27,338 bases of DNA, from positions 1-27,338 of the IMG/VR virus record IMGVR_UViG_3300044841_000030, one strand, 5' to 3'. Below, one piece after another: positions 1 to 24,520 of this stretch; position 1 is the first letter of the stretch, and the number at the start of each line of letters is the position of its first letter. Below the pieces are notes generated by a model. The model had not been told where the DNA came from. It was given only the letters and a program-made list of their open reading frames with translations, and ran no database searches. The position numbers and the translations under genes are program-made. The DNA comes from a virus.

Positions 1-61
1 ATAGAGAAAGCAAACTCTCCCCATTCTCGGTGGCATCTTTGATATAACTATACGGATTCAT
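1..61 (-). CDS. 5' end of an unidentified gene, cut by the window edge
   Basis: The reading frame starts with ATG at 61-59 and stays open to the left edge (about 20 residues, beginning MNPYSYIKDATENG). GGAG lies five bases before the ATG, and the start is only one base past the stop of the 2-epimerase gene (63-65), so it continues the same operon. Too short to identify. By position it is probably another sugar-cassette gene, for example a transferase or transaminase, but that is only inferred from its neighbours. Confidence 0.55.
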   Translation of the reverse strand, partial: MNPYSYIKDATENGESLLSL

Positions 62-62
62 T

Positions 63-1097
63 TCATCTCCAATAACTTAATATTATTCTCACCACAGTAT
101 TACTAACACTAGTAGCCAAATACTCTACCGGTGGTTTGCCCATGTTGGTCTCTAGTACTGTTTTTATGCCCCGCAAAATGTCAGTAGGCTCGCACCCTGA
201 TATAAAATTGCATCCCACCTCAATAGTCTCGGGGCGTTCAGTTGAATCTCGTAACGTAACTACCGGAACTCCGAATATAGCGCACTCTTCCTGCACCGTA
301 CCGGAATCAGTCAACACGACATAAGCGTCACGCTCATAATCAGTGAATTCTACAAAACCCATCGGGTCTACCAGTTTAATTAAGGGATGAAGGGTGTATT
401 CCTCTAGGGGTTGTCTAGCATGAGGGTGTACCGGCCAAATTAAGGGCAGTTGGTGTTCTAATACTATCCGTTCGAAAGCCTCAATAAACTTCGCTAACCT
501 AACTGGGTTATCAACATTTTCACTTCGATGGAGGGTTACTACAAACTGCGGCTCTTGAACGGGCCCTCGATGGACACAGTCGAGAACCTCATTGATTGGG
601 TTGCCGGTAACATAAATCCGTTGGCTCTCAATGCCTTCCCGCAGGAGGTTCTGGCGACTACGTTCAGTGTACGGCAAGAGAATATCAGAAGAGTGGTCGA
701 TAATGCGCCGGTTGGTTTCTTCGGGAACGCGGTCATCATAACAGCGATTACCGGCTTCCATATGAAAGACTCTTATGCCAAGTCGTTTGGCGATGATTAC
801 TCCTAAGGCGGAGTTGGTATCTCCTAGGACTAGTAGTGCATCGGGTTTCTCATATTCAAGGATGGCTTCAAACTTCCACATAAGTTTGGTTAATTGGCCA
901 CCAAAGCTACCGGTCATCTCGAGCTGGTAATCTGGCTTGCGAATATCCAGTTCATCAAAGAAGATCTTGCTCAGCTTGTCATCATAGTTCTGGCCGGTAT
1001 GGACCAAGATATGCTTGCAGAGCTGATCCAGCTCTGGGATGATCAGAGACAGCCGAATCAGTTCCGGGCGGGTTCCGAGCAGAGTTACGACTTTAAT
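63..1097 (-). CDS. UDP-N-acetylglucosamine 2-epimerase-like (WecB/CapG/WbvD family), apparent ATT start
   Basis: Non-hydrolysing UDP-HexNAc 2-epimerase, 344 aa, the last step in making an L-configured UDP-deoxy-aminosugar. Family motifs are all present: GTRPE at residues 8-12, GDT at 92-94, HMEAGNR at 112-118, PEETNR at 125-130, HRSEN at 190-194 and DSGTVQEE at 264-271. The essential N-terminal GTRPE strand lies upstream of the first usual start codon (TTG at 1007). Between the in-frame TGA upstream and 1007 there is no ATG, GTG or TTG. An ATT at 1097-1095 has AAAGGAG five bases before it and gives the family-typical beginning IKVVTLLGTRPE, so ATT is my chosen start. The gene overlaps the reductase stop by 13 bases. 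Family is near certain; the start is an inference. Confidence 0.9.
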   Translation of the reverse strand: MKVVTLLGTRPELIRLSLIIPELDQLCKHILVHTGQNYDDKLSKIFFDELDIRKPDYQLEMTGSFGGQLTKLMWKFEAILEYEKPDALLVLGDTNSALGVIIAKRLGIRVFHMEAGNRCYDDRVPEETNRRIIDHSSDILLPYTERSRQNLLREGIESQRIYVTGNPINEVLDCVHRGPVQEPQFVVTLHRSENVDNPVRLAKFIEAFERIVLEHQLPLIWPVHPHARQPLEEYTLHPLIKLVDPMGFVEFTDYERDAYVVLTDSGTVQEECAIFGVPVVTLRDSTERPETIEVGCNFISGCEPTDILRGIKTVLETNMGKPPVEYLATSVSNTVVRIILSYWR

Positions 1098-1846
1098 GAC
1101 AACTCCTTTACCATCTGTTCGATAGTTGGCGGCTGGTCATAGCCAGCGGCACGCCACAGTCTTAAATTCAAGGCTGGATTGGTGGTGGCCAGAGTCCGGT
1201 TAACAACCGTTGGAGTTTCAACCTCTCGGATGGTGATGTCTTTTTTATACACTGTAGCAATGATCTGCAAAAGCTCAGACTTAGTCACGCTATCGGCCGG
1301 AATAATGTGCTGCAATACCGGCAACTGGATATTCTCTCGAATGATACCTTCGACTATCTTGGCGAAGTGGTAACTAGTCACACCATTCCAAAAGTGGTTA
1401 GTAAACCCGTTAACGGTGTCTTCTTGACTCAAGAACCAGTCAAGTAATGAGAGATGGTTCTTCTCTTCTGGCCCAATGACTGAGCATCTAAGATTATTAA
1501 GATGGGGGGCTTCTCCTAAGCTCTTGGTCTTGCCATATACATCTAGCGCGTCATGAGGATCAGTCTCAATGTAAAGTCCGTCTTGACCGGAGTAGACACA
1601 GTCGGTAGCAATCTGGATAGACCCTGCGGGAAGATAATGAGGGAATAAAGCATTTACTCTAATAGCTTTCCCTGGATCCTCACAGTAAGGCTTAATCAGC
1701 CCGATGCAATTGACCATCCTATCTCTATTTTCAAACCACTTTGGTTCCGGCATCTCAGCGTTGACCGCTGCCCTGATGGTCCCAGGGGAGCCCGTAACTT
1801 TGACCATCATGCTGCCAAGCATCCCCGTACCACCAAGAATAATCAT
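1085..1846 (-). CDS. RmlD-like NAD(P)H-dependent 4-keto-sugar reductase (SDR family)
   Basis: 253-aa extended short-chain dehydrogenase of the dTDP-4-dehydrorhamnose reductase type. Visible are the Rossmann glycine motif GGTGMLG (5-11), TDCVYSG (81-87) and the catalytic pair Y104/K108 in YGKTK. It probably reduces the 4-keto group of the UDP-deoxy-aminosugar made by the neighbouring dehydratase. It ends after the SDR domain and lacks the C-terminal cupin domain that gives CapF/WbjC their 3-epimerase activity (those proteins are about 370 aa). That resembles the WbvR type, which leads to UDP-L-QuiNAc/L-RhaNAc rather than UDP-L-FucNAc. Its ATG overlaps the dehydratase stop (ATGA, 1843-1846). 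Substrate is inferred from context. Confidence 0.85.
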   Translation of the reverse strand: MIILGGTGMLGSMMVKVTGSPGTIRAAVNAEMPEPKWFENRDRMVNCIGLIKPYCEDPGKAIRVNALFPHYLPAGSIQIATDCVYSGQDGLYIETDPHDALDVYGKTKSLGEAPHLNNLRCSVIGPEEKNHLSLLDWFLSQEDTVNGFTNHFWNGVTSYHFAKIVEGIIRENIQLPVLQHIIPADSVTKSELLQIIATVYKKDITIREVETPTVVNRTLATTNPALNLRLWRAAGYDQPPTIEQMVKELSLKS

Positions 1847-2745
1847 TTTAATAGCTCCTTGGTCTGAGCTAGATCTAACCGAGTGGTGTTCTCAGAAGTG
1901 TAGGGGTTGTCGGTAAGCTTTTCCCCTGAAGTAAAGAACTTATCATAGTTCATGTCTCGACTGTCAGGTTTGACTCGATAATATCCACCCATATCTTGCG
2001 TGCGGTACATCTCTTCTTCAGAGATAAGAGTTTCATGGACTTTTTCCCCATGACGAGTTCCGATTATCTTAATGTCATCACTAATAGCTTTGGCGAGAGT
2101 CTCCATCGTGCAAGCCGGGGCTTTCTTTACGAATATATCGCCTGCAGATCCGTACTTGAGGGCGAACATTACCAGAGATATAGAATCCTCTAACGAGAGT
2201 AAAAACCGAGTCATCTTGGGATTTGTTAGTTGGATCGGCTCGCCAACCCTCGTGGCATTCTCCCAGATTGGGATAATAGATCCCCGTGACCGCATCACAT
2301 TACCATATCTCGTTATAATAGCTCCCTTAGAAATGGCTATTTTCTCCATCATAGCCTTAGAAACTCCCATCGCATTAATGGGGTACACGGCCTTATCGGT
2401 AGATAGGCAGACTACTCTTTTAACTCTATTAGCTTTAGCCGCGTCTAGTACATGATCAGTGCCTAAAATGTTAGTTTTAACAGCTTCTAGAGGGAAGAAC
2501 TCGCAGCTAGGCACTTGTTTTAAGGCTGCGGCGTGGAAAACGTAATCTTGGCCCTTCATGACTTCATCTAGTCTTTGCCGGTCGCGAATGTCCCCTATCT
2601 GGTAGTTAATGGCGGGAAGTTTTTGCCTCATCTCGTATTGCTTGGTCTCGTCACGGCTAAAGACAGTAATCTCATGTTCTAAATGGTATTTATTAGCAAA
2701 GGTTGAACCAAATGATCCGGTCCCACCAGTAATAAGGATCTTCAT
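1843..2745 (-). CDS. UDP-N-acetylglucosamine 4,6-dehydratase/5-epimerase (CapE/WbjB/FlaA1-like)
   Basis: 300-aa extended SDR enzyme, probably converting UDP-GlcNAc to the 4-keto-6-deoxy-L-hexulose intermediate. It has TGGTGSFG at 6-13 and STDK at 115-118, followed by M126-GVS-K130. Methionine in place of the usual SDR tyrosine is typical of this inverting dehydratase group. The sequence RYGNVMRSRGSIIPIW and HGEKVHETL near the end also fit the family. It overlaps the upstream glycosyltransferase (2742-2745) and the downstream reductase (1843-1846) by ATGA, so the three are translationally coupled. PseB-type dehydratases (pseudaminic acid) are the main alternative, but the reductase and 2-epimerase next door argue against that. 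Confidence 0.92.
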   Translation of the reverse strand: MKILITGGTGSFGSTFANKYHLEHEITVFSRDETKQYEMRQKLPAINYQIGDIRDRQRLDEVMKGQDYVFHAAALKQVPSCEFFPLEAVKTNILGTDHVLDAAKANRVKRVVCLSTDKAVYPINAMGVSKAMMEKIAISKGAIITRYGNVMRSRGSIIPIWENATRVGEPIQLTNPKMTRFLLSLEDSISLVMFALKYGSAGDIFVKKAPACTMETLAKAISDDIKIIGTRHGEKVHETLISEEEMYRTQDMGGYYRVKPDSRDMNYDKFFTSGEKLTDNPYTSENTTRLDLAQTKELLK

Positions 2746-3464
2746 AGCTTATCCAGCAGATCGTCGTAACCGCGTTCGAACATCGTCTTCTTGTAGTATT
2801 CGGGGTAGTCTAACCAGTTCGACTCATCGGCGAAGGTGTAAGCCACCTTTTCGGTTAAATGCCCCACCAAAAGTCCGGAGTTAATAACGTCCCGGCTGAA
2901 GCGATAATCCTCCTGAATCGTATGAATCCCCACGCCATTCTTCTCCCACGGGCGTTCATCATAGCGTAATCCTGTATCCCAGACCCGACGATGTATAACA
3001 CTGGTCCCACCGACATTACCCGGGAACTTGTTCAGGGTGATCCCATTTAAGGTGAACTCATACCCGTCTGCCAGGGGAGTATCAATTGCCGAATAATCTA
3101 AGCCTACCTGTCCGAGCGTTGGGATCTTATCAAAGGCCTTCTCTACGGCGGCGTCCCAGCCCGGCAAGAATACGAAATCATTATCCAGCCGCATGAAGTG
3201 AGTAGCCTTAGGGTACTTGAAGGCTCCAATGGCCCAACCGGAGTTGGTAGCGCGACCGGGGTAGTAGTTCTGTTGGTTCAGGACGATGCGATCAATCCTC
3301 CCGGATGATTTCTGCTCGGCTAGCCACAGCTTAGTCCCATCAGTTGAGTGGTTATCTACCACAATGATATAGTGAGGCACCTTTATAGTGTCTAACAAGT
3401 AGTCTAAAGTGCGCTTGGTATATTCCAACCGGTTATAGGTGATCATACAGATAAGGAGTTTCAT
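2742..3464 (-). CDS. Family 2-like glycosyltransferase
   Basis: 240-aa GT-A fold transferase. The N terminus (LLICMITYNRLEYTKRTLDY) and VVDNHSTDGT at about 35-44 are the standard nucleotide-sugar-binding start of GT2 enzymes. The metal-binding DXD motif is D94-N-D96. There are no membrane segments, so it is a cytoplasmic enzyme. The likely donor is the sugar made by the next three genes, with acceptor unknown (virion protein or host surface glycan). Its start overlaps the small gene before it (3461-3464) and its stop overlaps the dehydratase start. Confidence 0.9.
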   Translation of the reverse strand: MKLLICMITYNRLEYTKRTLDYLLDTIKVPHYIIVVDNHSTDGTKLWLAEQKSSGRIDRIVLNQQNYYPGRATNSGWAIGAFKYPKATHFMRLDNDFVFLPGWDAAVEKAFDKIPTLGQVGLDYSAIDTPLADGYEFTLNGITLNKFPGNVGGTSVIHRRVWDTGLRYDERPWEKNGVGIHTIQEDYRFSRDVINSGLLVGHLTEKVAYTFADESNWLDYPEYYKKTMFERGYDDLLDKL

Positions 3465-3637
3465 AATTCCTTCTCCTTATCGAGTAGAGCCTTCTGACAA
3501 TAATGTTTTGCTTCTTTATAGGAAAGAAACTTCTTCTCAGCTAATGAGTAGTACTCTTCCCCATCTTTTAATTTAGCTGTGAAGTAATGGTATTCTCCAT
3601 GCTCTGGGTGGGTCTTCAATTCATACTCAAACTTCAT
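3461..3637 (-). CDS. Small 58-aa hypothetical protein between glycosyltransferases
   Basis: Short, charged, soluble protein beginning MKFEYELKTHPEHGEYHYFT and ending in a lysine/glutamate-rich helix. I do not recognise it. It is supported by coupling at both ends: its ATG overlaps the TGA of the glycosyltransferase upstream (3634-3637) and its TGA overlaps the ATG of the one downstream (3461-3464). It fills a gap that would otherwise be the only break in the cassette. Confidence 0.75.
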   Translation of the reverse strand: MKFEYELKTHPEHGEYHYFTAKLKDGEEYYSLAEKKFLSYKEAKHYCQKALLDKEKEL

Positions 3638-4455
3638 AACAAGTTGGCCGTATCGTCAATCACGATGTAACGCTCCTCGGCTTTAATCGCTAACCCTGCC
3701 TCAATCAGCTTAGCGGCGTGAACTCTATCGGTCTCCACCTCTCCATTTGGGGTAGCAATGGTAACTAACTCTCCAGTCGGGAGCGGATCGGCTTTCTCAA
3801 TGTGCTTTCGAAGGTAATGCGGGACAATCTCGGTCCATTCATCGATCTGATGCGCTCCGTGATTAGTACCGGACTTGCCCATGGCCTTAAGTTTACGCTG
3901 CCCACACCTAATCGGTGAGAGTTTGATTGGGCTCTTCGATACATACAGCTTTATGCCAAAGGTTACATCATGAAGCCCATAATCACTAAGCCCTCGACCA
4001 CTAATAGAGGTGGTCATGCGAATATAAGAACCGTAGTAGGTAGCACCCCAGTGAATATCACTTCTAAAGTAAGGCCGTGTCAGGCGATCAAAGACTTCAC
4101 GCTTCACTAGGAGACAGCCGGTGCCGGAGAACACTACCTTGTTCTTCTCATCCAGAAACACCGCTCCCTGACCCGCAGCTGAAACTGGATAATCACAAGT
4201 GATCGCTTCAACGTTAGCTTTTAGTAGCTCGGTTAAGGTCTCCGGGCTGAGGATCATGTCATCCTCCACGAACCACAGATGGGTAATCTCCGGGTCTTTT
4301 AAGGCGAGTACGGTCGGTTGTTCGAAACAGCGTGGGATCGGCTGCTTATGTGAGAAAAAGAAACGGTAGGGCAGCCCCTTAAGGTTCTGTAAGATTTCCT
4401 CAGCCGTTTGGCTGAAGATCATCCCTCGACTAGGCAAAATAACGGCTATTTTCAT
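3634..4455 (-). CDS. GT-A type glycosyltransferase, paralogue 2
   Basis: 273 aa. The N terminus MKIAVILPSRGMIFSQTAEE and the acidic motif EDDM (64-67, in place of DXD) match the neighbouring gene at 4452-5240. Both share PI.P.CFE.PT..AL.DPE early, YGL.DV.FG in the middle and GQRKL later, so this is a tandem duplication that has diverged. The last ~60 residues, with ATPNGEVETDRVHAAKLIEAGLAIK, form a small extra tail absent from the other copy. Probably transfers a sugar from a nucleotide donor. It overlaps its upstream neighbour by ATGA (4452-4455). Confidence 0.8.
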   Translation of the reverse strand: MKIAVILPSRGMIFSQTAEEILQNLKGLPYRFFFSHKQPIPRCFEQPTVLALKDPEITHLWFVEDDMILSPETLTELLKANVEAITCDYPVSAAGQGAVFLDEKNKVVFSGTGCLLVKREVFDRLTRPYFRSDIHWGATYYGSYIRMTTSISGRGLSDYGLHDVTFGIKLYVSKSPIKLSPIRCGQRKLKAMGKSGTNHGAHQIDEWTEIVPHYLRKHIEKADPLPTGELVTIATPNGEVETDRVHAAKLIEAGLAIKAEERYIVIDDTANLL

Positions 4456-5240
4456 ACCGTCTCGTAGTCCTGATCTTTAATGTAGGCTTGCCCATCACGA
4501 TACCCCACAAAATCCGGGATATGATCCATAATCTCCGCACTCCCAACGGTCGCGAGCACCTTCTTGAAGCGTTGGATCTTGTCGTAGTCCATCGTCTTGA
4601 TGACCAGATCACGACCAACCCGGGTTAACTCCTTGATTTCATGCGGTCGCTTGGGATTGCGCACGTACTTGGTTAGCTTCCTTTGGCCAGCGGTACGTTC
4701 CATCGGGCTAATTGGGACACCAGCAGAATATAACAACATGCCAAAGTTCACATCTTGGAGGCCGTAGGCTACCATCTTTAACTTACGCGGCCAGAACATG
4801 ATTCGCGTGTTCTTAATTAGCACATCCCAGGTGGTGTCGGTGCGCCAGATCGGCTTCTGCATCTGTTCTAAGACCGTCCGAGCAACTAATAATAAGCCAC
4901 ACCCCGACCAGTAGGCATTACCTTCCGGGTCATGCAGCATAGTTGAGTCACCATTACTTTTAAAGGGGTAATCATACGCTACCACCGGGTAGTTTTGAGC
5001 GAACATCTCTCTGATTCCACCTCGAGGGAGGATCATGTCATCCTCGCAGTAGAGAATTGCAAACACTTCCGGGTCAGCTAGAGCACGGTCGGTTGGCTCC
5101 TCGAAGCATTGCGGAATTGGCAACCCATGAGCGAAGAATAGCTCATGCTCAATTCCCTCTAACTCACGCAGCAGCTCCTCGTAGGTCTCGCTGAAGATGA
5201 GACCACGCGACGGCACTACAACGGCCAGCTTCTCGCCCAT
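4452..5240 (-). CDS. GT-A type glycosyltransferase, paralogue 1
   Basis: 262 aa, the first gene of the sugar cassette proper. It begins MGEKLAVVVPSRGLIFSETY and has the metal/nucleotide-binding motif EDDM at 66-69. YGLQDVNFGMLLYSAGVPIS resembles the acceptor-side motif of small GT-A enzymes. It is paralogous to the next gene (3634-4455). No signal peptide or membrane segment is seen. It starts six bases after the stop of the 108-aa gene. Donor and acceptor cannot be read from the sequence. Confidence 0.8.
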   Translation of the reverse strand: MGEKLAVVVPSRGLIFSETYEELLRELEGIEHELFFAHGLPIPQCFEEPTDRALADPEVFAILYCEDDMILPRGGIREMFAQNYPVVAYDYPFKSNGDSTMLHDPEGNAYWSGCGLLLVARTVLEQMQKPIWRTDTTWDVLIKNTRIMFWPRKLKMVAYGLQDVNFGMLLYSAGVPISPMERTAGQRKLTKYVRNPKRPHEIKELTRVGRDLVIKTMDYDKIQRFKKVLATVGSAEIMDHIPDFVGYRDGQAYIKDQDYETV

Positions 5241-5246
5241 AGTAGT

Positions 5247-5573
5247 TTAGGCAGCTTCTTTCTCTGCGAGTTTATCTAGCTCATCGCGCAGTTGGATCAA
5301 AGTCCCAAGGCCTTCAGCCATCTGGCGGGCCTGAAAGCGGAAGTTACGGTCATTCTCAGCACCCTTAGAGGCCAGCATGTGGTCCTCACTCTTAAGTAGG
5401 TTGGTTGAGAGCAGAATATCGATACGATTGCGGAAGATTACCTTCTTGAACTCATCGATCTGGGCATTAACCAGGATAAGTTTCTGATTAACCGTCAGAT
5501 CATCCACCAGCTTCAGCTCTTTGGCATAAGCTTGGTCTTGTTTTAGTGGAGAGCTTGGAGAGATTAAAGACAT
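5247..5573 (-). CDS. 108-aa helical hypothetical protein
   Basis: Mostly helical, charged protein with heptad-like spacing (about residues 15-105), likely coiled coil. No recognised domain. AAGGGCG sits seven bases before the ATG and a candidate promoter lies just upstream at 5596-5624. It is therefore the first gene transcribed with the glycosyltransferases. It could be a small head protein or an accessory of the sugar cassette. Confidence 0.75.
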   Translation of the reverse strand: MSLISPSSPLKQDQAYAKELKLVDDLTVNQKLILVNAQIDEFKKVIFRNRIDILLSTNLLKSEDHMLASKGAENDRNFRFQARQMAEGLGTLIQLRDELDKLAEKEAA

Positions 5574-5879: not shown

Positions 5880-6758
5880 TTATGACTTGATGACGAAGCC
5901 GAAGCCACTTCGAAGGGTGGTACCGCCGAACAGAATGTCGACAGTAACCAACCAACCAAGATACTCCTGCTTGTACTGGGCCTGGGTGCGTGCGTTTTGC
6001 TGGATCGCAATGGCGAACGCTTCTTTGTGGAAGAACAGATGGGAGTTCTGCGGAGTTGCGGTCGCGAGCTGAACTAGGTTCTGGCTCATGTAGACCTTAA
6101 CGCCGTAGATTTCACCAATCTGACCGCTCATGATCGAGTTTTGGTCCCCACCGACACCAATGGCATCGTAGCGGATGTACTTATCGATATTGAGCATCTC
6201 TTGCTTGCCCTGAGGTGTAACAACTAGTGAGCGATCAGCTCCGGGAGCTTTGTTGTCGTCCAGATAGCGGTTGATCACCAACACGATTGAGTCGGCAATG
6301 GCGGTACCAAATGCACCGTATGCCGTAAAGGCGGTGGTCATAGTGGTAGCTACAAAGCTGTCAATCTTGGCTGAAATCGCATAGGCAGCGGCCTGAGTGT
6401 AAGCACTTCGCAAATCGTACTTACTTTGGACCGAGACGAAGTCTTCCAGCAGGAAGGAACTCTCGTAGTGTTGGTTTAGGGTAATGGTGGTTTTAGTTTC
6501 GGTGTTGTAGTTGAGGGTAACGAGGGTGTTAGCGCTCTTCGCATTGGCTGAGATAGTTGAAACGTTAGGGATTTCAACGGTCTGACCGTAACTCTGCACT
6601 TCGGTATCGTAGTGGCGCACCAGCGGAACGAGAACCAGGTTCGCTTTAACGAACATGAGGACTTCGCTCGCCCATACGTTAGGACGAAATACTGAAGACG
6701 GAGTTGCTGAAACGTTAACATTGCCGCTACCGTAAGCACCTGTTACGGGGTTAGCCAT
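5880..6758 (-). CDS. Major capsid protein (HK97-fold type)
   Basis: 292 aa. It starts MANPVTGAYGSGN and contains a stretch typical of short-tailed phage coat proteins: GQTVEIPNVSTISANAK, then a hydrophobic/aromatic block around ITLNQHYESSFLLEDF, then helices, and VVTPQGKQEMLN in the second half. Length and position (after a scaffold-like gene, portal and terminase) fit. TAAGGAG is ten bases before the ATG. No protease domain is fused or adjacent, so processing is not shown. Confidence 0.85.
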   Translation of the reverse strand: MANPVTGAYGSGNVNVSATPSSVFRPNVWASEVLMFVKANLVLVPLVRHYDTEVQSYGQTVEIPNVSTISANAKSANTLVTLNYNTETKTTITLNQHYESSFLLEDFVSVQSKYDLRSAYTQAAAYAISAKIDSFVATTMTTAFTAYGAFGTAIADSIVLVINRYLDDNKAPGADRSLVVTPQGKQEMLNIDKYIRYDAIGVGGDQNSIMSGQIGEIYGVKVYMSQNLVQLATATPQNSHLFFHKEAFAIAIQQNARTQAQYKQEYLGWLVTVDILFGGTTLRSGFGFVIKS

Positions 6759-6805: not shown

Positions 6806-7615
6806 TTAAGCTTCCATAGCTTTGTTGATTTCATCACGGTGCTCCATGTACCATTCTTGGCTGTTTGCACCTACTAGAGCATCAACATTCTGTGGAGTGA
6901 TTCGTGAGGCGGAGGTTTGGTTGGTGGTGGCATTACCACTCGCAACCGCTGCTCGCTGTTTATTGGCGAGTGATTCCAAGGCTTCTCGACCGCCGTCCTG
7001 CTTTAAAGCCGCGGCGTCTTTCGAAGAGTTCTTGAACTTGGCGACCGCATACAGGGCTTCTAGGTCATAGGCCAAATGAGGGCGTTCCTCAACTAATTTG
7101 CTGAGTTCGGCATCCATCAACTTCGCGTCAGGGTTGTCCTGGTAGAAGTTACGCACATCCTGTTCTAGCTTAAGGGACTGGATTTCGGCCTTGAGGTTAT
7201 CGATGTCCGTACCATTAAGCTCAGGAGCTTGGGCGGTGACTGACTTTTGAAGCGTAGAGGCTTCACTAGCTTTGGTGTGCATGGCTTTTTCAGAGTTTAA
7301 GGCCATCTCGGCAAGCTTGCGCTCACTGTCTGATGTAATAGAAACTCCTTTATTGCTAGCCCACTTCGCTAGATCTTCATCTATCTGTAGGGTTATCTCG
7401 TTACTACTAGTATTACTTGTTTCGTTCGTAACGTCGTCTGCTGAAGATCCCTGTTGATTTTCAGTAACGGTTGGCGTCTCCGCCGCTCCTTGGTCTGACG
7501 TGGTAGTTGGTTGTGGAGTTTCGTCTACTGCCAGCGCACGCCCTGAGGCGTCTACTGCAATACCGTTAATTCCGCCAGTACTTTGGTCAGGAGCGGTTAT
7601 GGTTTTGTCTTCCAT
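6806..7615 (-). CDS. Capsid scaffolding-like protein
   Basis: 269-aa hydrophilic, acidic protein. The first ~75 residues are low-complexity (T, S, Q, D, E), followed by long helices with coiled-coil character (about 80-215) and a basic/polar C terminus ending RDEINKAMEA. This composition and its place directly before the major capsid gene are typical of phage scaffolding proteins, which guide shell assembly and are removed. AAAGGAT is found before the ATG at 7615. No sequence-level match is claimed. Confidence 0.7.
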   Translation of the reverse strand: MEDKTITAPDQSTGGINGIAVDASGRALAVDETPQPTTTSDQGAAETPTVTENQQGSSADDVTNETSNTSSNEITLQIDEDLAKWASNKGVSITSDSERKLAEMALNSEKAMHTKASEASTLQKSVTAQAPELNGTDIDNLKAEIQSLKLEQDVRNFYQDNPDAKLMDAELSKLVEERPHLAYDLEALYAVAKFKNSSKDAAALKQDGGREALESLANKQRAAVASGNATTNQTSASRITPQNVDALVGANSQEWYMEHRDEINKAMEA

Positions 7616-7676: not shown

Positions 7677-7910
7677 CTACTTCCGATTAACAAGTTTATC
7701 CCCCATGGCCATGCTGTCGAGGTGTCTCAATATAACAGTATAAGCGTAAGAAGTCTTTGTCAAGCCAAAGGATTCTTCTAATGTAAGAGCTTTTTCGGCC
7801 CGATTAAGCGTAGCGTTGCGTTCCTGCTCAATCCATCCCCGTAGATGCTGGCCAATAGCAGATTTATTAAGGGCGTCATAGCCTTGAGCTAGTTGGTCTA
7901 AGTTAGCCAT
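7677..7910 (-). CDS. 77-aa hypothetical protein between portal and scaffold
   Basis: I start it at the ATG at 7910, which overlaps the last 8 bases of the portal gene and gives MANLDQLAQGYDALNKSAIG. The longer frame to 7964 would add 18 basic residues and overlap the portal further. Helical, soluble, no recognised domain. Small genes at this place often encode head-completion or portal-associated proteins, but nothing here shows it. Confidence 0.7.
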   Translation of the reverse strand: MANLDQLAQGYDALNKSAIGQHLRGWIEQERNATLNRAEKALTLEESFGLTKTSYAYTVILRHLDSMAMGDKLVNRK

Positions 7911-9624
7911 GCAACGCCATATGTGGCACTTCAGAAGGCGCTGCCTGTGCCGGGGGTTGGCCACCAGGTGCAGCTCCCGGAGGCATACCTTGAGCTTGCA
8001 TTGCCTGTTCTTGAGCCTGTTCTTGTTCCATTTGCATCTGTTGCTGAGATTTCATTAAGGTATCAACCTCATCGGGGTCAAGATCAAACTCTTTCTGCAT
8101 GATGAACTTAGTCATCTCTTCCTGATTAACATATGGATTGTTGAGCATAGTAGTGTAAAGTACCTGATATTTCTGGGAGTCGGCCGTCTCTTGCTTTTGG
8201 AGAGTAGATTGTAGTTGCACCATTGGGTCATACTCACCAGGGTATTGTTCTTGATCATAGACCGTCCAAGAAGTTCCCTGCGTGCCGGTGGTGCGGATGC
8301 TTTTAGGCTGTTTGATGTAGAGTTTTATCATTTGGAAGACTAGCTTGCCGAGTTGGTGGAAGCCGTCTTGCTCTAGCATGCTGGTCTTGGCATCGAAACG
8401 TTGGCCAACTTGTGCGATGATGGCATTTAACTGCGTTGCGGTCGAACGTCCACCACTAAGGTTAAGCCCAAAGATTTCATTAGCGGCGGTGGTTTCACGA
8501 ATCTCGTTCTTTAAGTTGCCGCGCTCCTCAAAAGCCTGCGGCGGAACCTGACCGTGGACTACTGGGTTCAAGGCACCAGCCGGGAAGGGATAAACTGCAC
8601 CCGGTAGATTCTCAACCTTCTCGATCCAGTCAGAATAGGCCGGATCTAGGGTGTACATCTGGTTTAAAGTGTAGGTAACCGAATCGATATTCTGGTTAGT
8701 TAGATCGTTCAAGAGTTCCTGCTGACCCATGATCGGCTCAATCTCGCCCTTACCGAGGAATAACGACTCATCGATGTAGTCACGCTGGACAATAAAGGGG
8801 TTCAATGACTGCGGATTCTTATCCTCGTTGGCTTTAGCCTGCACTAAGTAGGGGTTGTCGTCGTCTTGGATCAAGATCTTACGATTAACCACCGAGCGCA
8901 CCCTATCTTTGCTCCACCACTCAATCACCTCAACTTGCGATAGAGCTGCTTTCGGGCCAAGAGTTGACCCGATGAACATGTCCTTGTTCTCTTTATCAAG
9001 CGCGTCACTAGGCTTGTCTCCGGGCTGACTTAACTGGTCGAGATTCTTGTATTTTTGCTCCATCGCGCCAGTCTCAGGGTTGACGATCTGGAAGCTTTTA
9101 AGCTCATCGATGGTTGTAAGATAACGTCTACCTTGATACGCTGCGGTCTCTGGACTGGTAGCGGTAGGATCAAAGAAGAAGTCTCGCACGGGGATGTTTA
9201 AGAGGCGGGGCTTATCAATATCCCAGTAACAGTACATAACTCCCGTACCATACATCAGCATCGAACGTATCCACTGGTGGACTTTGGCGCCCCACTTGTC
9301 ACAGTCCCAGTAGTAATCTAATAGCCCATTGAGGCCGGTGGTGTCTTGGTTTTGGCTAATCTCTTGGGGAACGAAGGTAAACTTTGGCTTACCCCCAGCG
9401 ATTGCAGCTACCATCACTTCAATCGTGGTAAAGGTGATTGGTACAAATGAGTCGGTAATCCCTTGGTAAGCTATATCAACGCGTTCATTGTTATAAAGCT
9501 TGAAGCAGCTGTCCCATACCTCATGGTAAGAGCCAGCGGTGTAGTCCCAACATGATTTGAAGTCAGCTACGACTGAAGCAGCGGTTGCATCATCGGTAGT
9601 CTCAGTGGTAGTAACGTCGGCCAT
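7903..9624 (-). CDS. Portal protein
   Basis: 573 aa, forms the dodecameric channel through which DNA is packaged and ejected. It shows the expected acidic start, a DSFVPITFTTIEVMVAAIAGG segment near residue 60, a WDIDKPRLLNIPVRDFFFDP motif near 130-150, and long helices. A glutamine/methionine-rich tail from about residue 520 (QQQMQMEQEQAQEQAMQ) is followed by a proline-rich end. Tails of this kind are common in P22/T7-like portals. It lies between the large terminase and the scaffold gene. Confidence 0.88.
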   Translation of the reverse strand: MADVTTTETTDDATAASVVADFKSCWDYTAGSYHEVWDSCFKLYNNERVDIAYQGITDSFVPITFTTIEVMVAAIAGGKPKFTFVPQEISQNQDTTGLNGLLDYYWDCDKWGAKVHQWIRSMLMYGTGVMYCYWDIDKPRLLNIPVRDFFFDPTATSPETAAYQGRRYLTTIDELKSFQIVNPETGAMEQKYKNLDQLSQPGDKPSDALDKENKDMFIGSTLGPKAALSQVEVIEWWSKDRVRSVVNRKILIQDDDNPYLVQAKANEDKNPQSLNPFIVQRDYIDESLFLGKGEIEPIMGQQELLNDLTNQNIDSVTYTLNQMYTLDPAYSDWIEKVENLPGAVYPFPAGALNPVVHGQVPPQAFEERGNLKNEIRETTAANEIFGLNLSGGRSTATQLNAIIAQVGQRFDAKTSMLEQDGFHQLGKLVFQMIKLYIKQPKSIRTTGTQGTSWTVYDQEQYPGEYDPMVQLQSTLQKQETADSQKYQVLYTTMLNNPYVNQEEMTKFIMQKEFDLDPDEVDTLMKSQQQMQMEQEQAQEQAMQAQGMPPGAAPGGQPPAQAAPSEVPHMALHG

Positions 9625-9652: not shown

Positions 9653-11092
9653 TTATCTACTATATTTGCGGTTAAGCATAGCCTGGGGTTTGTAGACTTT
9701 AAGTGTACTCTTTGGCGCATCGGCATAACTAACCATGAAGTAAGCTAAGGCTCTTACACCATCAAAGTGGTGGCCAAACCTACGATGATCATCCCATTTA
9801 GGCTGAACCTCTTCCCCTTGCTTGGAGACTTTCTCCAGCCACACCAGGTTCTCAATCTCTTGGACTAACCAGTTGTGCTCTTGACCGGTGCGTTCATCTA
9901 TTTCCACTAAGGAACTAGAGATAAAGAGGCGGGGCCTACCGGTGCCCGGCTGGATCTGACCATATTCCTCCATCTTTGTAGCTAAGGTCTCATCCCAGCT
10001 CTTAGAGTCATTAGGTTGCTTTACTACGGGGTCTAATCTCATGCCAATGTCTTGAAGATCTTTAGCCAATCTAGGATCATCGTTGTCTATCCATCCTCTA
10101 GTAAGAGTAAGCCCTGATGCTTTGATGTCTCGCAGTTGCTTGATCTGAGGAGCTTGCAGCCGTTTCTTACGAAAGCCTGATACTACATGGACGTTGTTGT
10201 CATTATCCACACCACAGAGTAACCACGCTGATGGGTCTGAGAATCCACCATCGAGAATTTCATACCATGTCCATCCTCTATCCAATGACTCATAGTCTTT
10301 AAGATGAGCTGATCGATCCCACCAGGCACAGACCAACCCAACCCGTTTCACAAACTTCCCTTCGCGTCGAACCTTAATAGCATTAGCTGAGAGCCCTCGA
10401 GACATTTGCTGCTTCTGAGATTCTGTAAGCCAGGGGTTGTCATCCCAGCCAGCTTCTGACACAAACAAATCAGGGTTCCCAGTATTGAGGTAAATGTCGT
10501 CATAGACCCAAGTCATACCTTTAATTGGAGTCATAGTGAGTAACACGTCTAAGTCTTGGCCGGCCTCTACGCGCACAAAGCACTCTTCCCAAATATCTCG
10601 AGGGGGTTCTTCATCAAACCAAATCAAACGCTTACCGGTGCCCTGGAACTTCTCACGACCTTGCTCATAGGACTTGAATGACAAGATGTTGCCATTCTTC
10701 AAGTGCATCTTCTTAATGATACGCCCACGGAGATAATCAATATGCTCAATCTCTTTAGGAGGAATGTAGGTTAGTAACTTCTTTTGGGTGGTTTCTTCTT
10801 GAGCATCGAATGACGGACAACAACACCATATCTCATAAGGAGGCCTTAAAGCTTTGTAGGGATGGTCGGCTACCGCGTACTGAGCTACTTCCTGTGCCCC
10901 CCATTCGGTCTTACCTACACGGTTACCCCAGAACAAGGTTTTAATAGCAGCAGATGATTCAGAAGCTTCTTTCTGCTTATTATGTTGTTTAATATATTTA
11001 AGCGGGTTCTCTATTCTTCTACGTTCTAGCTCTGAGAGCATTTCAAGATAAGAAATCTTTTCGGGCCTTGATAGCTTGCTCAAGCTGGTCAT
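9653..11092 (-). CDS. terL: Terminase large subunit (ATPase/nuclease)
   Basis: 479 aa, the DNA-packaging motor. Walker A is GNRVGKTE (56-63), Walker B LIWFDEEP (156-163), and the coupling motif TMTP is at 187-190. The C-terminal RNase H-like nuclease shows DGGFSDPSAW, WIDNDDP and DDHRRFGHHFDGVRAL, giving the expected acidic residues. The start at 11092 overlaps the small-subunit gene by 50 bases. An alternative ATG at 11041 sits just after that gene's stop, but residues 1-17 continue a helix usual for this family, so I keep the longer form. Confidence 0.95.
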   Translation of the reverse strand: MTSLSKLSRPEKISYLEMLSELERRRIENPLKYIKQHNKQKEASESSAAIKTLFWGNRVGKTEWGAQEVAQYAVADHPYKALRPPYEIWCCCPSFDAQEETTQKKLLTYIPPKEIEHIDYLRGRIIKKMHLKNGNILSFKSYEQGREKFQGTGKRLIWFDEEPPRDIWEECFVRVEAGQDLDVLLTMTPIKGMTWVYDDIYLNTGNPDLFVSEAGWDDNPWLTESQKQQMSRGLSANAIKVRREGKFVKRVGLVCAWWDRSAHLKDYESLDRGWTWYEILDGGFSDPSAWLLCGVDNDNNVHVVSGFRKKRLQAPQIKQLRDIKASGLTLTRGWIDNDDPRLAKDLQDIGMRLDPVVKQPNDSKSWDETLATKMEEYGQIQPGTGRPRLFISSSLVEIDERTGQEHNWLVQEIENLVWLEKVSKQGEEVQPKWDDHRRFGHHFDGVRALAYFMVSYADAPKSTLKVYKPQAMLNRKYSR

Positions 11093-11447
11093 CGGTCATG
11101 TCCTCATACTTATGTGTAATCTCACCCTTCTGATCGACTTCAGTCTTATCCCGCCAGCCATAGTTGTTCTTCAAATTGAATATAGCCCCGCCTACGTTCT
11201 TCCCAGTATAAAGATAGTCTTCTGCATACCCCTCACACTTGAGTTTTGCATCTTTTATGGTGTCAAAAAACTCTTCCCTGGATTCATAGTTGATTAATGT
11301 CTCTCGAGATGTTCTAAGTGCCAAAGCTAACCCTGTGATTAGGTATGGCTTATTATGCTCATCACACCAAGTAAAATACTCCTCAATCTTACCTTGAAGC
11401 TCCTCGCGAGATTTGAACAAGAGCGGTCTACCGCCTGGGTGTGCCAT
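11043..11447 (-). CDS. terS: Terminase small subunit (P22 gp3-like)
   Basis: 134 aa, recognises the phage DNA for packaging. It begins MAHPGGRPLLFKSREELQGK, and GRP..F.S.EELQ..I..YF is the hallmark of the gp3-like packaging family. A helix-turn-helix region (LITGLALALRTSRETLINYE) and a central helical segment follow, then the NLKNNYGWRDKTEVDQ motif also seen in this family. No ribosome site precedes the ATG; a -10 box lies only six bases upstream, so the message may be leaderless. Confidence 0.88.
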   Translation of the reverse strand: MAHPGGRPLLFKSREELQGKIEEYFTWCDEHNKPYLITGLALALRTSRETLINYESREEFFDTIKDAKLKCEGYAEDYLYTGKNVGGAIFNLKNNYGWRDKTEVDQKGEITHKYEDMTDDQLEQAIKARKDFLS

Positions 11448-12799: not shown

Positions 12800-13035
12800 G
12801 TAAGCTTGATGAGCAAATAAAGCAAATAACGCATAGTGCTTTCCGCCACCCCGACATGCAGATGGATGACATAAAAGCTCTCCTAGCCGAGTTCACTGAG
12901 GCCATGAAAGCAGCGGTGCCAGAGAAATATACTGAAAATGATTATGGCTTAGCCCCGCATGAACAACCTTGGAACGATGCCATAGACGCAACCCATGAGG
13001 CGTTAGATAAGGTAATTAAGGAGTATTTAGGATGA
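12796..13035 (+). CDS. 79-aa hypothetical protein
   Basis: Soluble, helical, acidic protein (MSKLDEQIKQITHSAF, FTEAMKAAVPEK, ALDKVIKEYLG). ATGA overlaps with both neighbours, and a GGGGTGAGAG ribosome site. No recognised domain. It directly precedes the first of the two alanine-rich proteins and may be co-produced with it. Confidence 0.7.
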   Translation: MSKLDEQIKQITHSAFRHPDMQMDDIKALLAEFTEAMKAAVPEKYTENDYGLAPHEQPWNDAIDATHEALDKVIKEYLG

Positions 13036-13814
13036 AGGCATATTTAAATGACGCGGAGCTAAAGAAAGACTTCGTTAAAGAGATTAAGCGTCACCAAGAG
13101 GCAGACCAGATTATCCAGGGGACTTACGCCAAAGGATCAGGTAAAAACTGGAAAGGTTGTGCTGTTGGGTGTAGCATCCATTCGTTGAATCGGATTAAGA
13201 AAAAGACGTATAAAACTAGCAATCACTCAGTTTACGAGACAGAGCTGGGAATTCCTCGCCAGCTCGCGTACCTCGAAGACAGAATCTTTGAAGGCTTGGA
13301 TGTCAAAACTTCAAAAGAGTGGCCCCTCCGATTCTCGCAAGCTATTAGACCAGGCGCAGATCTGTCGCTCGTCGTGTCTAAGTTTATGGTGGCAGTGCTC
13401 AAAGATGAAAACTTCGGAGTATACAAATTTGCTCATAGGGATGGGAAGAAAGCGATTGATAATGTAGTAGCTTTATATGAGCGAAAATTATCTGGCAGTG
13501 AACCAACTCGCGAGGAGTGGCTAGAAGCTAGAGACGAAGCATCTTTGGCACGACGAGCTGCTTATGCTGCTTATGATGCTGCTTCTGATGCTGCTGCTTA
13601 TGCTGCTTATGCTGCTTCTGATGCTGCTTATGATGCTGATGCTGCTGCTTATGATGCTGCTGCTGATGCTGCTTCTTATGCTGCTGCTTATGCTGCTGAT
13701 GCTGCTGCTGATGCTGCTTCTGATGCTGCTGCTGATGCTGATGCTGCTGGACGAGACCATTACAAGAAAATGGCAGATAGGCTAATCGAGTTATTGGAGA
13801 AAGCAGGTGAGTAA
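13032..13814 (+). CDS. Alanine-rich rod protein A (Y/D/S type)
   Basis: 260 aa in three parts. Residues 1-150 form a folded domain shared with the gene at 14016, with AKGSGKNWKGCAVGCSIHS (C43, C47) as its most conserved piece. Residues 176-239 are a low-complexity helix of alanine with Y, D and S, every alanine coded GCT. A short conserved cap (YKKMADRLIELLEKAG) ends it. The rod is acidic. Similar alanine-repeat proteins are known from many phage genomes, with no function that I know of. It overlaps the gene before it by ATGA. Confidence 0.85.
   Translation: MKAYLNDAELKKDFVKEIKRHQEADQIIQGTYAKGSGKNWKGCAVGCSIHSLNRIKKKTYKTSNHSVYETELGIPRQLAYLEDRIFEGLDVKTSKEWPLRFSQAIRPGADLSLVVSKFMVAVLKDENFGVYKFAHRDGKKAIDNVVALYERKLSGSEPTREEWLEARDEASLARRAAYAAYDAASDAAAYAAYAASDAAYDADAAAYDAAADAASYAAAYAADAAADAASDAAADADAAGRDHYKKMADRLIELLEKAGE
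13066..13171 (+). repeat. 106-base identical repeat, copy 1
   Basis: Identical base for base to 14050-14155, inside the N-terminal domains of the two alanine-rich genes. Flanks diverge at once on both sides, including at silent positions. This points to recent gene conversion or strong selection on this block. Confidence 0.9.
13557..13748 (+). repeat. GCT-rich codon repeat tract in rod protein A
   Basis: 64 codons made only of GCT, TAT, GAT and TCT, that is GCT units broken by NAT/TCT codons. Near-repetitive DNA of this kind can change length by slippage in steps that keep the frame. Confidence 0.9.

Positions 13815-14015: not shown

Positions 14016-14019
<4 letters not shown>
13839..14019 (+). 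pseudogene. Frameshifted small gene between the two rod genes
   Basis: An ATG at 13839 with AGGAG upstream begins MSKWQNNP and then stops at 13875-13877. The +1 frame from there on reads as good protein (QTKQWEEAEWLDDYFGSH, YGVRFKDEQIFNANLYKL) and ends at TGA 14017-14019, overlapping the GTG of the next gene as other genes here do. The natural reading is one gene of about 59 codons broken or recoded by one base near 13850-13875. A sequencing error is also possible. Confidence 0.45.
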
Positions 14020-14859
<840 letters not shown>

Positions 14860-14870
<11 letters not shown>

Positions 14871-22020: not shown

Positions 22021-22362
22021 ATGACTTTTAGAACAGCTCTCCTAACCGAATTACTTGCAACCGTAGCCTTAGCGGGCTATATGACGATCCCCCCGACTCC
22101 AGTATTGGTAAGCGACATCTTCCCGCCCCACAAGGTAATTATCGAGCAGGCCGCTGTAGCCCCTACTGCAGCTCCTGCGGTTGCACCTAGTTATACTCCC
22201 AGCCCAGATCCCAGCGACGTATCCGTAGGCGCGGTAATTCCACCCCACCAAGATCCCGCACCAGCGGTTCCAGCTGCTTCACCAGCCCCCGTAGTAACAT
22301 CCGAGGTTAATCCAACTCCCTGTCGGTCAATAGGGAACAACGGGCCGGTAGACTGTAATTAG
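22021..22362 (+). CDS. Secreted or membrane-anchored Pro/Ala-rich protein
   Basis: 113 aa. Hydrophobic start (TALLTELLATVALAGYMTI) as signal peptide or anchor, followed by a long proline/alanine/valine-rich extended region and an end with two cysteines (PCRSIGNNGPVDCN) that could form a disulfide loop. No ribosome site. It is a lone plus-strand gene between minus-strand operons, with its own strong promoter, and its stop overlaps the stop of the converging gene by four bases. A possible host-surface or exclusion function is inferred from this layout only. Confidence 0.65.
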   Translation: MTFRTALLTELLATVALAGYMTIPPTPVLVSDIFPPHKVIIEQAAVAPTAAPAVAPSYTPSPDPSDVSVGAVIPPHQDPAPAVPAASPAPVVTSEVNPTPCRSIGNNGPVDCN

Positions 22363-24491
22363 CGTTGGTTGTACTTACCGGCCAAGACGTCAGCTTTACT
22401 TTCACGGCCCTGTTTGAAAGCCTGGATGGTAGATTGGGCGTTTTGTTTGCTAATATTACCGGATTTCAATTGTTTAGCTAAATAGTTCTCAACTGGGGTG
22501 TAGTTCTTCCATTGAGCCGTTGTAACAAGCTTTAAGTTACTAGAGTCATTAGACCCCCCAATCTCTAAAGGAACGGTATGGTCTAACTTATAGCTGGGGT
22601 TATTCTTGCCTCCAGCCTTCTTGGCGGCTGCCGAGGCAGATAGCGGCATGCGCTGGACGATGACGGTACCATTATCGACTCGCTTGATCTGTTCTCCTTT
22701 AAAGATACGATTAAAGGCGGTCTCAGGATCGGTCCCAATAGCTTGAGCATAGACCGTGATCTGATTGATCAAACTATTGTCCTTAATCTTCACACTAGTT
22801 CCTTGAGCATTATAAGGAGCCGGGATTGTGTTGGTGGTTATCCCTAGCGCGTCAGAAATCATCGCCAGCATGGTATTGGCTGAGTTGGGGTTACTCTTCA
22901 ACTCATTATAGTTAGCTATTGGAAGAGGCAAGAGTAGGTTACTTAGCTCCCCTCCTACAGTAATAGGGTTACCGCTAAAGTCCTTACCCTTAGCTATATC
23001 TTTAACGACCGATGATATTGGCGAAAGTTTACCCTCAAAGAAGTTATAGACCACATCCTTACGGGTAGGTTGGCCGAACTTCCCACTATCGAGAGACGTA
23101 ACAGTGCCGGTTGAACTCTTGGTTGATCCTTCGAGCATTCGAGCGGCTAGAGTAATAACAGGGGCCATCCCACCTGAGACAGTGAAAGTGGTGTTGCCGA
23201 TCTTTATCTTACCAAAGTTAGAGCTTCTGGGGTCGAGTTCCACCGAATTAGGATTAAGCGTACGAGCTATACCCAACACTGCGGCGGTACCACTAATAAC
23301 TTTCACGAGGTTAATTGCAGCTTGTTTACGCACGAAGGGGCTAACTCCTTTTTGAAGATTGTGCCCGGTCAGAAAATCAACCTGGCTCTTTAAAAAACGG
23401 GGGGAGAAGAAGATGTTGTTAACTCGGTTAGCTATCTTTTCACCGGCGCCTAAATACCCTCTACCGGTCAGGGAGTTTACTAGCTTCCCGATACTCTCGA
23501 GTTGAGCTTTGTCGTTGATATTGACGCCAGATTTGTCCGCTATCTGTAAATATTTATCAAAGACATCGGCTCGAGTACGATACTGAAACCCCTCAAAGGC
23601 GTTCTCGCTAGCTTTAAAGGCCTTCCCCAAAAGCGGGATCTTGGTGGGGTACTGCGAAGGATAAGCTTCCTCAACATTGCCAATTGCTAGTTTGGCTTTA
23701 ATCATCTTGTCATAAGTCGGCCGCGACATAATCTCAGCGCTAATCTCGTCCATTACCTTCTTACCGCCGAAGGTCTTATACATATCCACAAATGATTGGC
23801 GGGCATTTTTCTGCCACACCCCCGGATGAGTAAACAGCGTCTTCCAGCCCTGGTTAAAGAGGGCTGAATCATCCAGCGAAGCTTTGAGACTTTTACTAAC
23901 CCCGGCCACATTTGATACCCCCTGGGCGATACTTCCCAGTGGGTTATTCTTAATTACTCCTGGAATTTCCTTGAGGGAAGTCTTCCCGGCTTCTTGTTTT
24001 AAGCCATTAACGTAGTTCGCCAGATTAACCTTGGCCCGGCCGTAGTCTAATCTGTTACCACCTTGGTCCATGGCGGTCTTAGCATCATCAATCGCCTTAG
24101 ACAACTGAGCGATTTGTTTAGTCTCCTGCGCTGTTACGTCTACCCCCAGTCGGGTAGAAGCAAGGTCTTTCAAGAAAGCCTTCTCCTCAGCTGGGTTCAA
24201 GACTCGATCAAGTTTACTAATCTTAGTAAATAAATCTCGACGTACCTCGGGAGTGATTCCGGAAACTTTCTTAGCCCACGAGGCAAACCCTACCTGCTGG
24301 TTCTTTAAGAGAAGTTTGGATTCGAATAAAGCGTTAACCTCTTTGGCACTTTCACCAACGATACCCTCGAAGAAAGTCCGGCGTTCCTCGCTCGTCATAT
24401 TGGCTAGTTTCTCGGGGTCGATCTGTCCATTCCGAATAGCATCCAGGAACTTAGTTGCATCAGCTGGGATGAGACAGAAGTTAGCAGCCAC
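22359..24491 (-). CDS. Large virion-internal-type protein with C-terminal HNH-like motif
   Basis: About 710 aa from GTG at 24491 (GAGGTG just upstream; a TTG at 24503 would add four residues). Mostly helical. The middle (FKASENAFEGFQYRTRADVF, LTGRGYLGAGE, NNIFFSPRFLKSQVDFL) resembles the domain found in large polyvalent phage proteins and internal/ejected virion proteins. Near the end, LDHTVPLEIGG and SNLKLV match the first half of an HNH nuclease, though the last histidine is not seen. Likely ejected with the DNA or structural; any nuclease activity is uncertain. Confidence 0.65.
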   Translation of the reverse strand: MAANFCLIPADATKFLDAIRNGQIDPEKLANMTSEERRTFFEGIVGESAKEVNALFESKLLLKNQQVGFASWAKKVSGITPEVRRDLFTKISKLDRVLNPAEEKAFLKDLASTRLGVDVTAQETKQIAQLSKAIDDAKTAMDQGGNRLDYGRAKVNLANYVNGLKQEAGKTSLKEIPGVIKNNPLGSIAQGVSNVAGVSKSLKASLDDSALFNQGWKTLFTHPGVWQKNARQSFVDMYKTFGGKKVMDEISAEIMSRPTYDKMIKAKLAIGNVEEAYPSQYPTKIPLLGKAFKASENAFEGFQYRTRADVFDKYLQIADKSGVNINDKAQLESIGKLVNSLTGRGYLGAGEKIANRVNNIFFSPRFLKSQVDFLTGHNLQKGVSPFVRKQAAINLVKVISGTAAVLGIARTLNPNSVELDPRSSNFGKIKIGNTTFTVSGGMAPVITLAARMLEGSTKSSTGTVTSLDSGKFGQPTRKDVVYNFFEGKLSPISSVVKDIAKGKDFSGNPITVGGELSNLLLPLPIANYNELKSNPNSANTMLAMISDALGITTNTIPAPYNAQGTSVKIKDNSLINQITVYAQAIGTDPETAFNRIFKGEQIKRVDNGTVIVQRMPLSASAAAKKAGGKNNPSYKLDHTVPLEIGGSNDSSNLKLVTTAQWKNYTPVENYLAKQLKSGNISKQNAQSTIQAFKQGRESKADVLAGKYNQR

Positions 24492-24520
24492 TTGACACCT
24501 CAACGATTATAGTGTATGGT
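24492..24520 (+). promoter_or_regulatory. Rightward promoter of a leaderless mini-gene
   Basis: TTGACA (24492-24497, perfect), 17-base spacer, TATGGT (24515-24520, 4 of 6), then six bases to ATG 24527. A perfect TATAAT for the opposite direction (24511-24506) lies inside the spacer, pointing to the gene at 24491. Confidence 0.65.

Follow-up and report, generated by a model that had tools for sequence, protein, structure and literature searches.

Glycosylation genes behind a phage capsid gene

The DNA considered here is a stretch of 27,338 nucleotides from a virus (IMG/VR record IMGVR_UViG_3300044841_000030; the window, below), in which a cassette of nucleotide-sugar enzymes and glycosyltransferases (GTs) follows the major capsid gene of a tailed phage (Table 1). 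A first-pass annotation made from the sequence letters had proposed six such genes, three sugar enzymes and three GTs. All six are present, as judged from Pfam and NCBIfam matches and, for the two GTs denoted B2 and B1, from AlphaFold models and Foldseek searches, and the proposal that a genuine phage carries, in its late structural operon, a complete nucleotide-sugar pathway with three GTs is supported. Beyond the window edge the cassette continues, in the complete genome, with the remainder of a methyltransferase gene and then a Glyco_transf_7C glycosyltransferase (GT7C).

The whole window lies inside a 39,778-base virus record, with one mismatch (99.996% identity). This record carries a 127-base direct terminal repeat, which indicates a complete circular genome of 39,651 bp. 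The capsid-B2-B1-GT2 junction is seen again in dozens of other contigs.

Within the cassette, ATGA overlaps occur at the B2/B1, B1/ORF58, ORF58/GT2, GT2/FnlA and FnlA/reductase junctions, ORF58 being a 58-aa open reading frame (ORF) that had been overlooked. The first-pass annotation had joined all the genes in this way, which holds for these five junctions; the reductase and 2-epimerase genes are joined by a 13-nt overlap instead. The GTs had also been placed directly behind the capsid genes, and they do come after the capsid gene, with a 108-aa gene in between.

Table 1. Genes of the structural operon and the sugar cassette, by position in the window
Gene	Position	Strand	Evidence and remarks
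Small terminase (GP3_package)	11043..11447	(-)	PF16677 E=4e-23
Large terminase	9653..11092	(-)	PF03237 E=6e-13; PHROG 2
Portal protein, SU10-like	7903..9624	(-)	PF23899 E=3e-17
Scaffold-like protein	6806..7615	(-)	By position; relatives at the same place in the clade, 29-45% identity; no Pfam match
Major capsid protein	5880..6758	(-)	PF19821 E=2e-9; PHROG 267 major head E=7e-38
108-aa gene between capsid and GT genes	5247..5573	(-)	Conserved in the clade (cluster c1, 51 loci)
B2, GT-A fold glycosyltransferase	4452..5240	(-)	AlphaFold2 model, Foldseek, acidic motif, capsid linkage
B1, paralogue of B2, GT-A fold glycosyltransferase	3634..4455	(-)	AlphaFold2 model, Foldseek, alignment
58-aa ORF between B1 and GT2	3461..3637	(-)	ATGA overlap at each end
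GT2-family glycosyltransferase	2742..3464	(-)	PF00535 E=2e-11; DND motif
UDP-GlcNAc 4,6-dehydratase/5-epimerase, FnlA/CapE type, MxxxK active site	1843..2745	(-)	TIGR04130 E=7e-110
RmlD-like 4-reductase lacking a cupin domain	1085..1846	(-)	PF04321 28.4 bits; TDC and YGxxK motifs
UDP-sugar 2-epimerase, CapG/WbjD type	63..1097	(-)	PF02350 E=2e-85; probable ATT start at 1097-1095
S-adenosylmethionine (SAM) methyltransferase	1..60	(-)	Initial 20 codons in window; complete in circular genome

The sugar-making enzymes

The FnlA-like dehydratase matches Pfam Polysacc_synt_2 (287.6 bits) and, at its C-terminus, Polysacc_syn_2C (45.1 bits); its score against TIGR04130 is 367 bits, which is under the NCBI equivalog cut-off of 730. 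It aligns over its full length to CapE-type structures (4j2o, 3vvb; E about 1e-95 to 1e-100), with STDKAVYPINAMGVSK and TRHGEK aligning to 3vvb. Among solved structures, the nearest homologues of the dehydratase and the 2-epimerase are CapE-type enzymes and CapG, the pathway of Staphylococcus aureus being CapE/CapF/CapG (FnlABC, WbjBCD). The active site of CapE is kept in the phage enzyme, including MxxxK in place of YxxxK, Asp125, Lys126 and Glu257 (CapE numbering), and so are all the active-site residues that have been mutated in CapE, where changes to the Asp, Lys and Glu abolish or reduce activity (PMC3699295).

The nearest structure to the 2-epimerase is CapG (7ya2, E=1e-80), and its wecB score is 218 bits. 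It contains the motifs LGDTNS, HMEAGNR, PEETNRR and HRSEN, which from knowledge of WecB-type epimerases we take to hold the catalytic residues; the known catalytic residues of the cassette's sugar enzymes are intact. No ATG, GTG or TTG is found between the upstream in-frame stop and the GTRPE motif (window 1085-1139, minus strand). The ATT at 1097-1095 aligns with the first codon of the orthologues (ATG, once GTG) and has AAGGAG 5 nt upstream, so that translation probably begins at an AUU codon overlapping the reductase stop, rather than at the TTG at 1007 proposed earlier.

The reductase is a 253-aa protein with a weak RmlD_sub_bind match (28.4 bits, the cut-off being 27), and sequence searches returned no solved relative of it. 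Its motifs are GGTGMLG, TDC and YGKTK, and the TDC cysteine and YGxxK are invariant in five aligned phage reductases that otherwise belong to two very different types. S. aureus CapF is a fusion of reductase and cupin, unlike the phage protein, which shows the RmlD match only; no CapF-type cupin is found in the window, and some relatives have the cupin as a separate gene.

The predicted sugar

A similar virus-encoded cluster is known from Megavirus chilensis, in which Mg534-Mg539 comprise a dehydratase/5-epimerase, an RmlD-like reductase with a cysteine, a 2-epimerase and GTs (PMC9614988). Mg535, an RmlD-like protein of 270 aa, carries out C-3 epimerisation with a conserved cysteine and C-4 reduction to give UDP-N-acetyl-L-rhamnosamine (UDP-L-RhaNAc), and Mg536 converts this to UDP-N-acetyl-L-quinovosamine (UDP-L-QuiNAc); QuiNAc is present on Megavirus virions (PMC9614988).

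The short, cupin-less, RmlD-like phage reductase with its cysteine resembles Mg535 as described, and the product of the module is for this reason likely to be UDP-L-RhaNAc/UDP-L-QuiNAc, by the route of Mg534-536 and WbvB/R/D, not UDP-N-acetyl-L-fucosamine (UDP-L-FucNAc). This prediction draws on motifs and domain architecture, Mg535 being compared by description. The UDP-deoxy-aminosugar of the first-pass annotation is thereby kept as a 6-deoxy-N-acetylhexosamine (6-deoxy-HexNAc) route, with L-RhaNAc/L-QuiNAc, from the type of reductase, more likely than a generic deoxy-HexNAc. We regard UDP-L-FucNAc, the product of the S. aureus enzymes, as unlikely. FnlA and the 2-epimerase are closest to CapE-type enzymes and CapG among solved structures, and a CapF-type cupin (PF14667) is a separate gene in eight relatives, which would fit that product; however, the window is without any cupin, and its reductase is RmlD-like, single-domain and near Mg535 in length, with the cysteine at the expected place.

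The glycosyltransferases

B2 and B1 have no match to any Pfam, NCBIfam or PHROG family. AlphaFold predicts both with confidence (mean pLDDT, the predicted local distance difference test, 92.1 for B2 and 91.5 for B1), and in Foldseek both models match the GT-A fold, with probability 1.00 and E down to 1.6e-7 against a solved GT-A enzyme. Nearest to B2 are A197 of Sulfolobus turreted icosahedral virus (STIV), the GT domain of human LH3, COLGALT1 and Mimivirus R699, its viral matches including phage and giant-virus glycosyltransferases; the matches of B1 include STIV A197 and LH3. Protein side chains are direct acceptors for LH3 and COLGALT1.

An EDDM-type acidic metal-binding motif is found in B2, with E66 and D68 invariant in 43 aligned sequences, and B1 has E64, D66 and M67 invariant in 37; the DND motif of GT2 is invariant in 34 sequences. 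Because the predicted structures match GT-A enzymes, B2 and B1 are assigned as glycosyltransferases on the strength of these models, and the earlier count of three GTs is correct.

The cassette proteins have no membrane segment, their maximum 19-residue hydropathy being at most 1.29, compared with 2.39 in a membrane control. Nor was a flippase, polyprenyl-phosphate GT, polymerase or membrane GT found within the cassette. Gtr-type serotype conversion, which involves a membrane flippase and a bactoprenol GT, was considered and rejected on this hydropathy.

A fixed core and exchanged sugar modules

A search with the capsid protein gave 80 loci, from which relatives were taken as those whose capsid identity is 58% or more and which have no less than 5.5 kb of downstream sequence (32 loci, a few of them near-duplicates). 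B2, B1 and GT2 follow the capsid gene in 31 of these 32, and nucleotide-sugar genes are present in 28, in at least six kinds. Assigned by gene content, with our own labels, six module types are: FnlA with reductase and 2-epimerase; FnlA with 2-epimerase and a separate CapF-type cupin; an RmlB-like dehydratase with 2-epimerase; an RmlB-like enzyme with a sugar C-methyltransferase; a UDP-glucose-dehydrogenase type, in one case alongside a nucleotidyltransferase and in another alongside a DegT aminotransferase; and a GDP-fucose-synthase-like short-chain dehydrogenase/reductase with an extra GT. The first-pass annotation had suggested a search for the same cassette beside the capsid genes of other phages, and these counts bear it out. 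It had also called a whole pathway in a late operon unusual, but this is not a one-off, since nearly every relative has the GT core with a different sugar module.

When mapped on the capsid tree, the module types require 14 changes, compared with a minimum of 5 and a shuffled mean of 18.8, which points to types that are somewhat clustered yet often exchanged. A single pathway inherited by the whole clade is ruled out by the same comparison with the minimum. Gene order and reductase type also vary within the window's own group, where the module thus appears to have been rearranged as well. Capsid divergence is matched more closely by that of B2 (Spearman 0.78) than by that of the portal or the scaffold (0.35 each). 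Among distant relatives (capsid 42-49% identical), those with downstream sequence have one GT of the B2/B1 family and zero sugar-gene clusters. In the closest pair, which differs by few substitutions, dN/dS is below 0.4 for all cassette genes.

Specificity, history and host

A B2 profile search of 2.9 million viral contigs also gave 80 loci. In 78 of them this capsid gene lies upstream, in the same orientation, and the remaining two begin at the contig edge. B2 and GT2 had no match in 50,697 deposited phages. In the same set FnlA had only two strong matches, at 53% identity, and LR745206 at 35%. The two are unannotated, unverified 'Staphylococcus phage' records (OR849864, OR844989), which may be host DNA deposited as phage.

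FnlA relatives of at least 65% identity belong exclusively to this phage clade, and the next ones are at 54% or less. In the tree the phage FnlAs form a clade (SH-aLRT 96 for nine rows, with that of locus L082 joining at support 75) separate from the chromosomal FnlAs of Saccharibacteria, and eight of nine aligned phage FnlAs are without a stretch that is found in L082 and in bacterial FnlAs. Recent capture of a host FnlA is ruled out, since the phage FnlAs are their own clade with two shared deletions. Together, this argues for a long history of the cassette genes in phages.

The host is likely a member of the Saccharibacteria, on the basis of co-binning in metagenome-assembled genomes (MAGs). 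Scanning 84,980 genomes with the capsid profile gave three close contigs in two MAGs, one titled Candidatus Saccharibacteria and holding two different phages of this clade, the other of the same class; among 393 genomes of the likely host class, B2 was found only in these two MAGs.

In two relatives, L082 and L083, which are co-binned with Saccharibacteria-class MAGs, the sugar cassette includes a 2-oxoglutarate-Fe(II) oxygenase (L082 8835-9551, L083 16938-17675). Taken together with the LH3/COLGALT1-like fold, this hints that a residue might be hydroxylated ahead of glycosylation.

Probable virion glycosylation and its alternatives

We consider the locus, on balance, to be probably the virion-glycosylation locus of a lytic-looking podophage-like phage. 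This reading is favoured because of the position in the late operon, the strict capsid linkage and the solubility of the proteins, which are unaccompanied by export machinery, and because of the likeness to enzymes that glycosylate proteins directly and the precedents in STIV, mycobacteriophages and giant viruses. The first-pass annotation had left the choice between virion glycosylation and remodelling of the host surface; with soluble proteins, and with B2 found only behind the capsid gene, the former is the better of the two.

In the mechanism proposed, the cassette enzymes would be made together with the capsid, and, in the cytoplasm, B2 or B1 would attach the first sugar to a side chain on a protein of the capsid or fibre. 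From homology, FnlA is predicted to convert UDP-N-acetylglucosamine (UDP-GlcNAc) to UDP-6-deoxy-4-keto-L-HexNAc, the RmlD-like reductase to form UDP-L-RhaNAc, its cysteine being placed like the C-3 epimerisation residue of Megavirus, and the 2-epimerase to form UDP-L-QuiNAc. GT2 and GT7C would then extend the glycan with this special sugar and the methyltransferase would cap it. Exchange of the module would alter the outer sugar, with the core continuing to act on the same acceptor.

In most relatives, the gene that follows the sugar cassette (L114 15866-18184; c4 cluster, 26 loci) codes for a protein whose N-terminus looks helical and whose long versions have a fibre-like C-terminus, with one weak tail-fibre match. 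This fibre-like protein is a candidate glycan acceptor besides the capsid protein.

Several points weigh against virion glycosylation. The family assignment of the reductase is weak (28 bits), and in relatives of the cupin type no reductase was recognised, which may make their pathway dependent on the host. TM-scores to GT-A enzymes are about 0.5, such that donor, acceptor and linkage are unreadable from the fold, and an acceptor on the virion is a candidate put forward from gene context. The cassette could also act on the host surface.

Such action would change the surface glycans of the infected host, for superinfection exclusion, for attachment of the epibiont to the bacterium that it lives on, or for masking. 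Phages assigned to Patescibacteria have been described as carrying galE, rmlB, rmlD, gmd and others, which were interpreted there as auxiliary metabolic genes (AMGs) acting on the host surface (PMC12911398). Saccharibacteria rely on surface contact, and about 20 of the 393 likely-host-class genomes have a chromosomal FnlA, so the sugar is used by some hosts. However, the cassette is without the membrane GT, flippase and polymerase already mentioned and its proteins all look soluble, the GTs lie in the late structural operon with B2 never away from this capsid gene, and the phage FnlAs are not recent host copies but a clade with shared deletions. We therefore find the auxiliary-gene reading weaker than virion glycosylation, and improbable.

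It is very improbable that the GTs hypermodify phage DNA against restriction: DNA-glycosylating GTs have been described in phages (Pyle et al., 2024, cited through PMC12619734), but the scanned proteins of the window and genome, several early ones of which match nothing, include no recognised hydroxymethylase, TET or thymidylate-synthase-like base-modifying enzyme, and the genes are late and beside the capsid gene, not early. A bacterial cassette fused to phage DNA by misassembly, a risk raised in the first-pass annotation, is as good as excluded, as is chance, by the near-identical circular genome with the same gene order, the capsid-to-GT junction recurring across contigs, and the phage-specific FnlA clade.

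Comparison with known systems

The sugar set of Megavirus chilensis is clade-specific and found on virions (PMC9614988). That virus is a giant eukaryotic virus with fibrils, unlike the 40-kb tailed phage described here; Mg534 is of the YxxxK type, whereas the phage FnlA is of the MxxxK (CapE) type, and the phage sugar genes, in contrast to the Megavirus cluster, sit inside a capsid operon. STIV A197 is the best fold match for both B2 and B1, at 15-16% sequence identity. A197 is an essential GT and the STIV coat protein is glycosylated (PMC10551542), although STIV is an archaeal virus with a single GT and a donor presumed to be host-derived.

In mycobacteriophages (Che8, Freeman et al., 2023), phage GTs have been linked to glycans of the capsid and tail tube (as cited in PMC12619734, PMC11256854). 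The sections of those accounts consulted do not mention a sugar-making pathway, and the host is other than Saccharibacteria; the GT genes of Maravista are described there as lying near the 3' end of the genome, whereas here they are behind the capsid gene. As for the Patescibacteria-phage AMGs, the capsid linkage, GT core, module swapping and FnlA route are unmentioned in the consulted part of that work (PMC12911398).

Other features of the window and genome

On the plus strand, two paralogues (window 13032-13814 and 14016-14870) are nearly identical in their N-terminal part and have long alanine-rich repeats at the other end, those of one being rich in Asp/Tyr and those of the other in Trp; the first matches only PHROGs of unknown function. 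Two large late proteins are encoded on the minus strand, one with a ParB-like domain (window 24644-26428; PHROG 1033, E=5e-9) and the other ending in what by eye is an HNH-like motif (window 22359-24503). No tRNA or RNA family was found in the window. No DNA polymerase, helicase or integrase was recognised among the scanned proteins of the complete 39.65-kb genome (L113/L114), and replication may depend wholly on the host.

Significance

Sugar pathways in viral genomes and the glycosylation of phage virions are already known, and nucleotide-sugar genes have been reported before in phages, Patescibacteria phages included (PMC12911398, PMC10980836). Our searches of the open-access literature turned up no phage clade described as having a constant GT core downstream of the capsid gene together with sugar modules that can be exchanged.

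The relatives retain the transferases and exchange the sugar genes, which suggests that the phages decorate their own particles with sugars that are easily altered in evolution. Tentatively, and with rather less confidence than in virion glycosylation itself, we propose that this is a clade of Saccharibacteria phages with a glycan 'cassette site' behind the capsid gene, in which a fixed three-enzyme virion-glycosylating core is combined with a plug-in module swapped between lineages, giving each phage a different sugar, much as in bacterial O-antigen gene swapping. The swapped sugars could serve in evasion of capsid-targeting factors, or tune attachment to the larger bacterium that carries the epibiont host.

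If this is true, tailed phages would possess, linked to their capsid operon, an O-antigen-like means of varying the sugars of the coat, and many 'auxiliary' sugar genes of phages would be recast as virion-building genes. Specific rare sugars would be predicted on the particles, L-QuiNAc/L-RhaNAc here and others in relatives. It would also provide a concrete handle on phages that infect Saccharibacteria, which are ultrasmall epibionts for which few phages are known.

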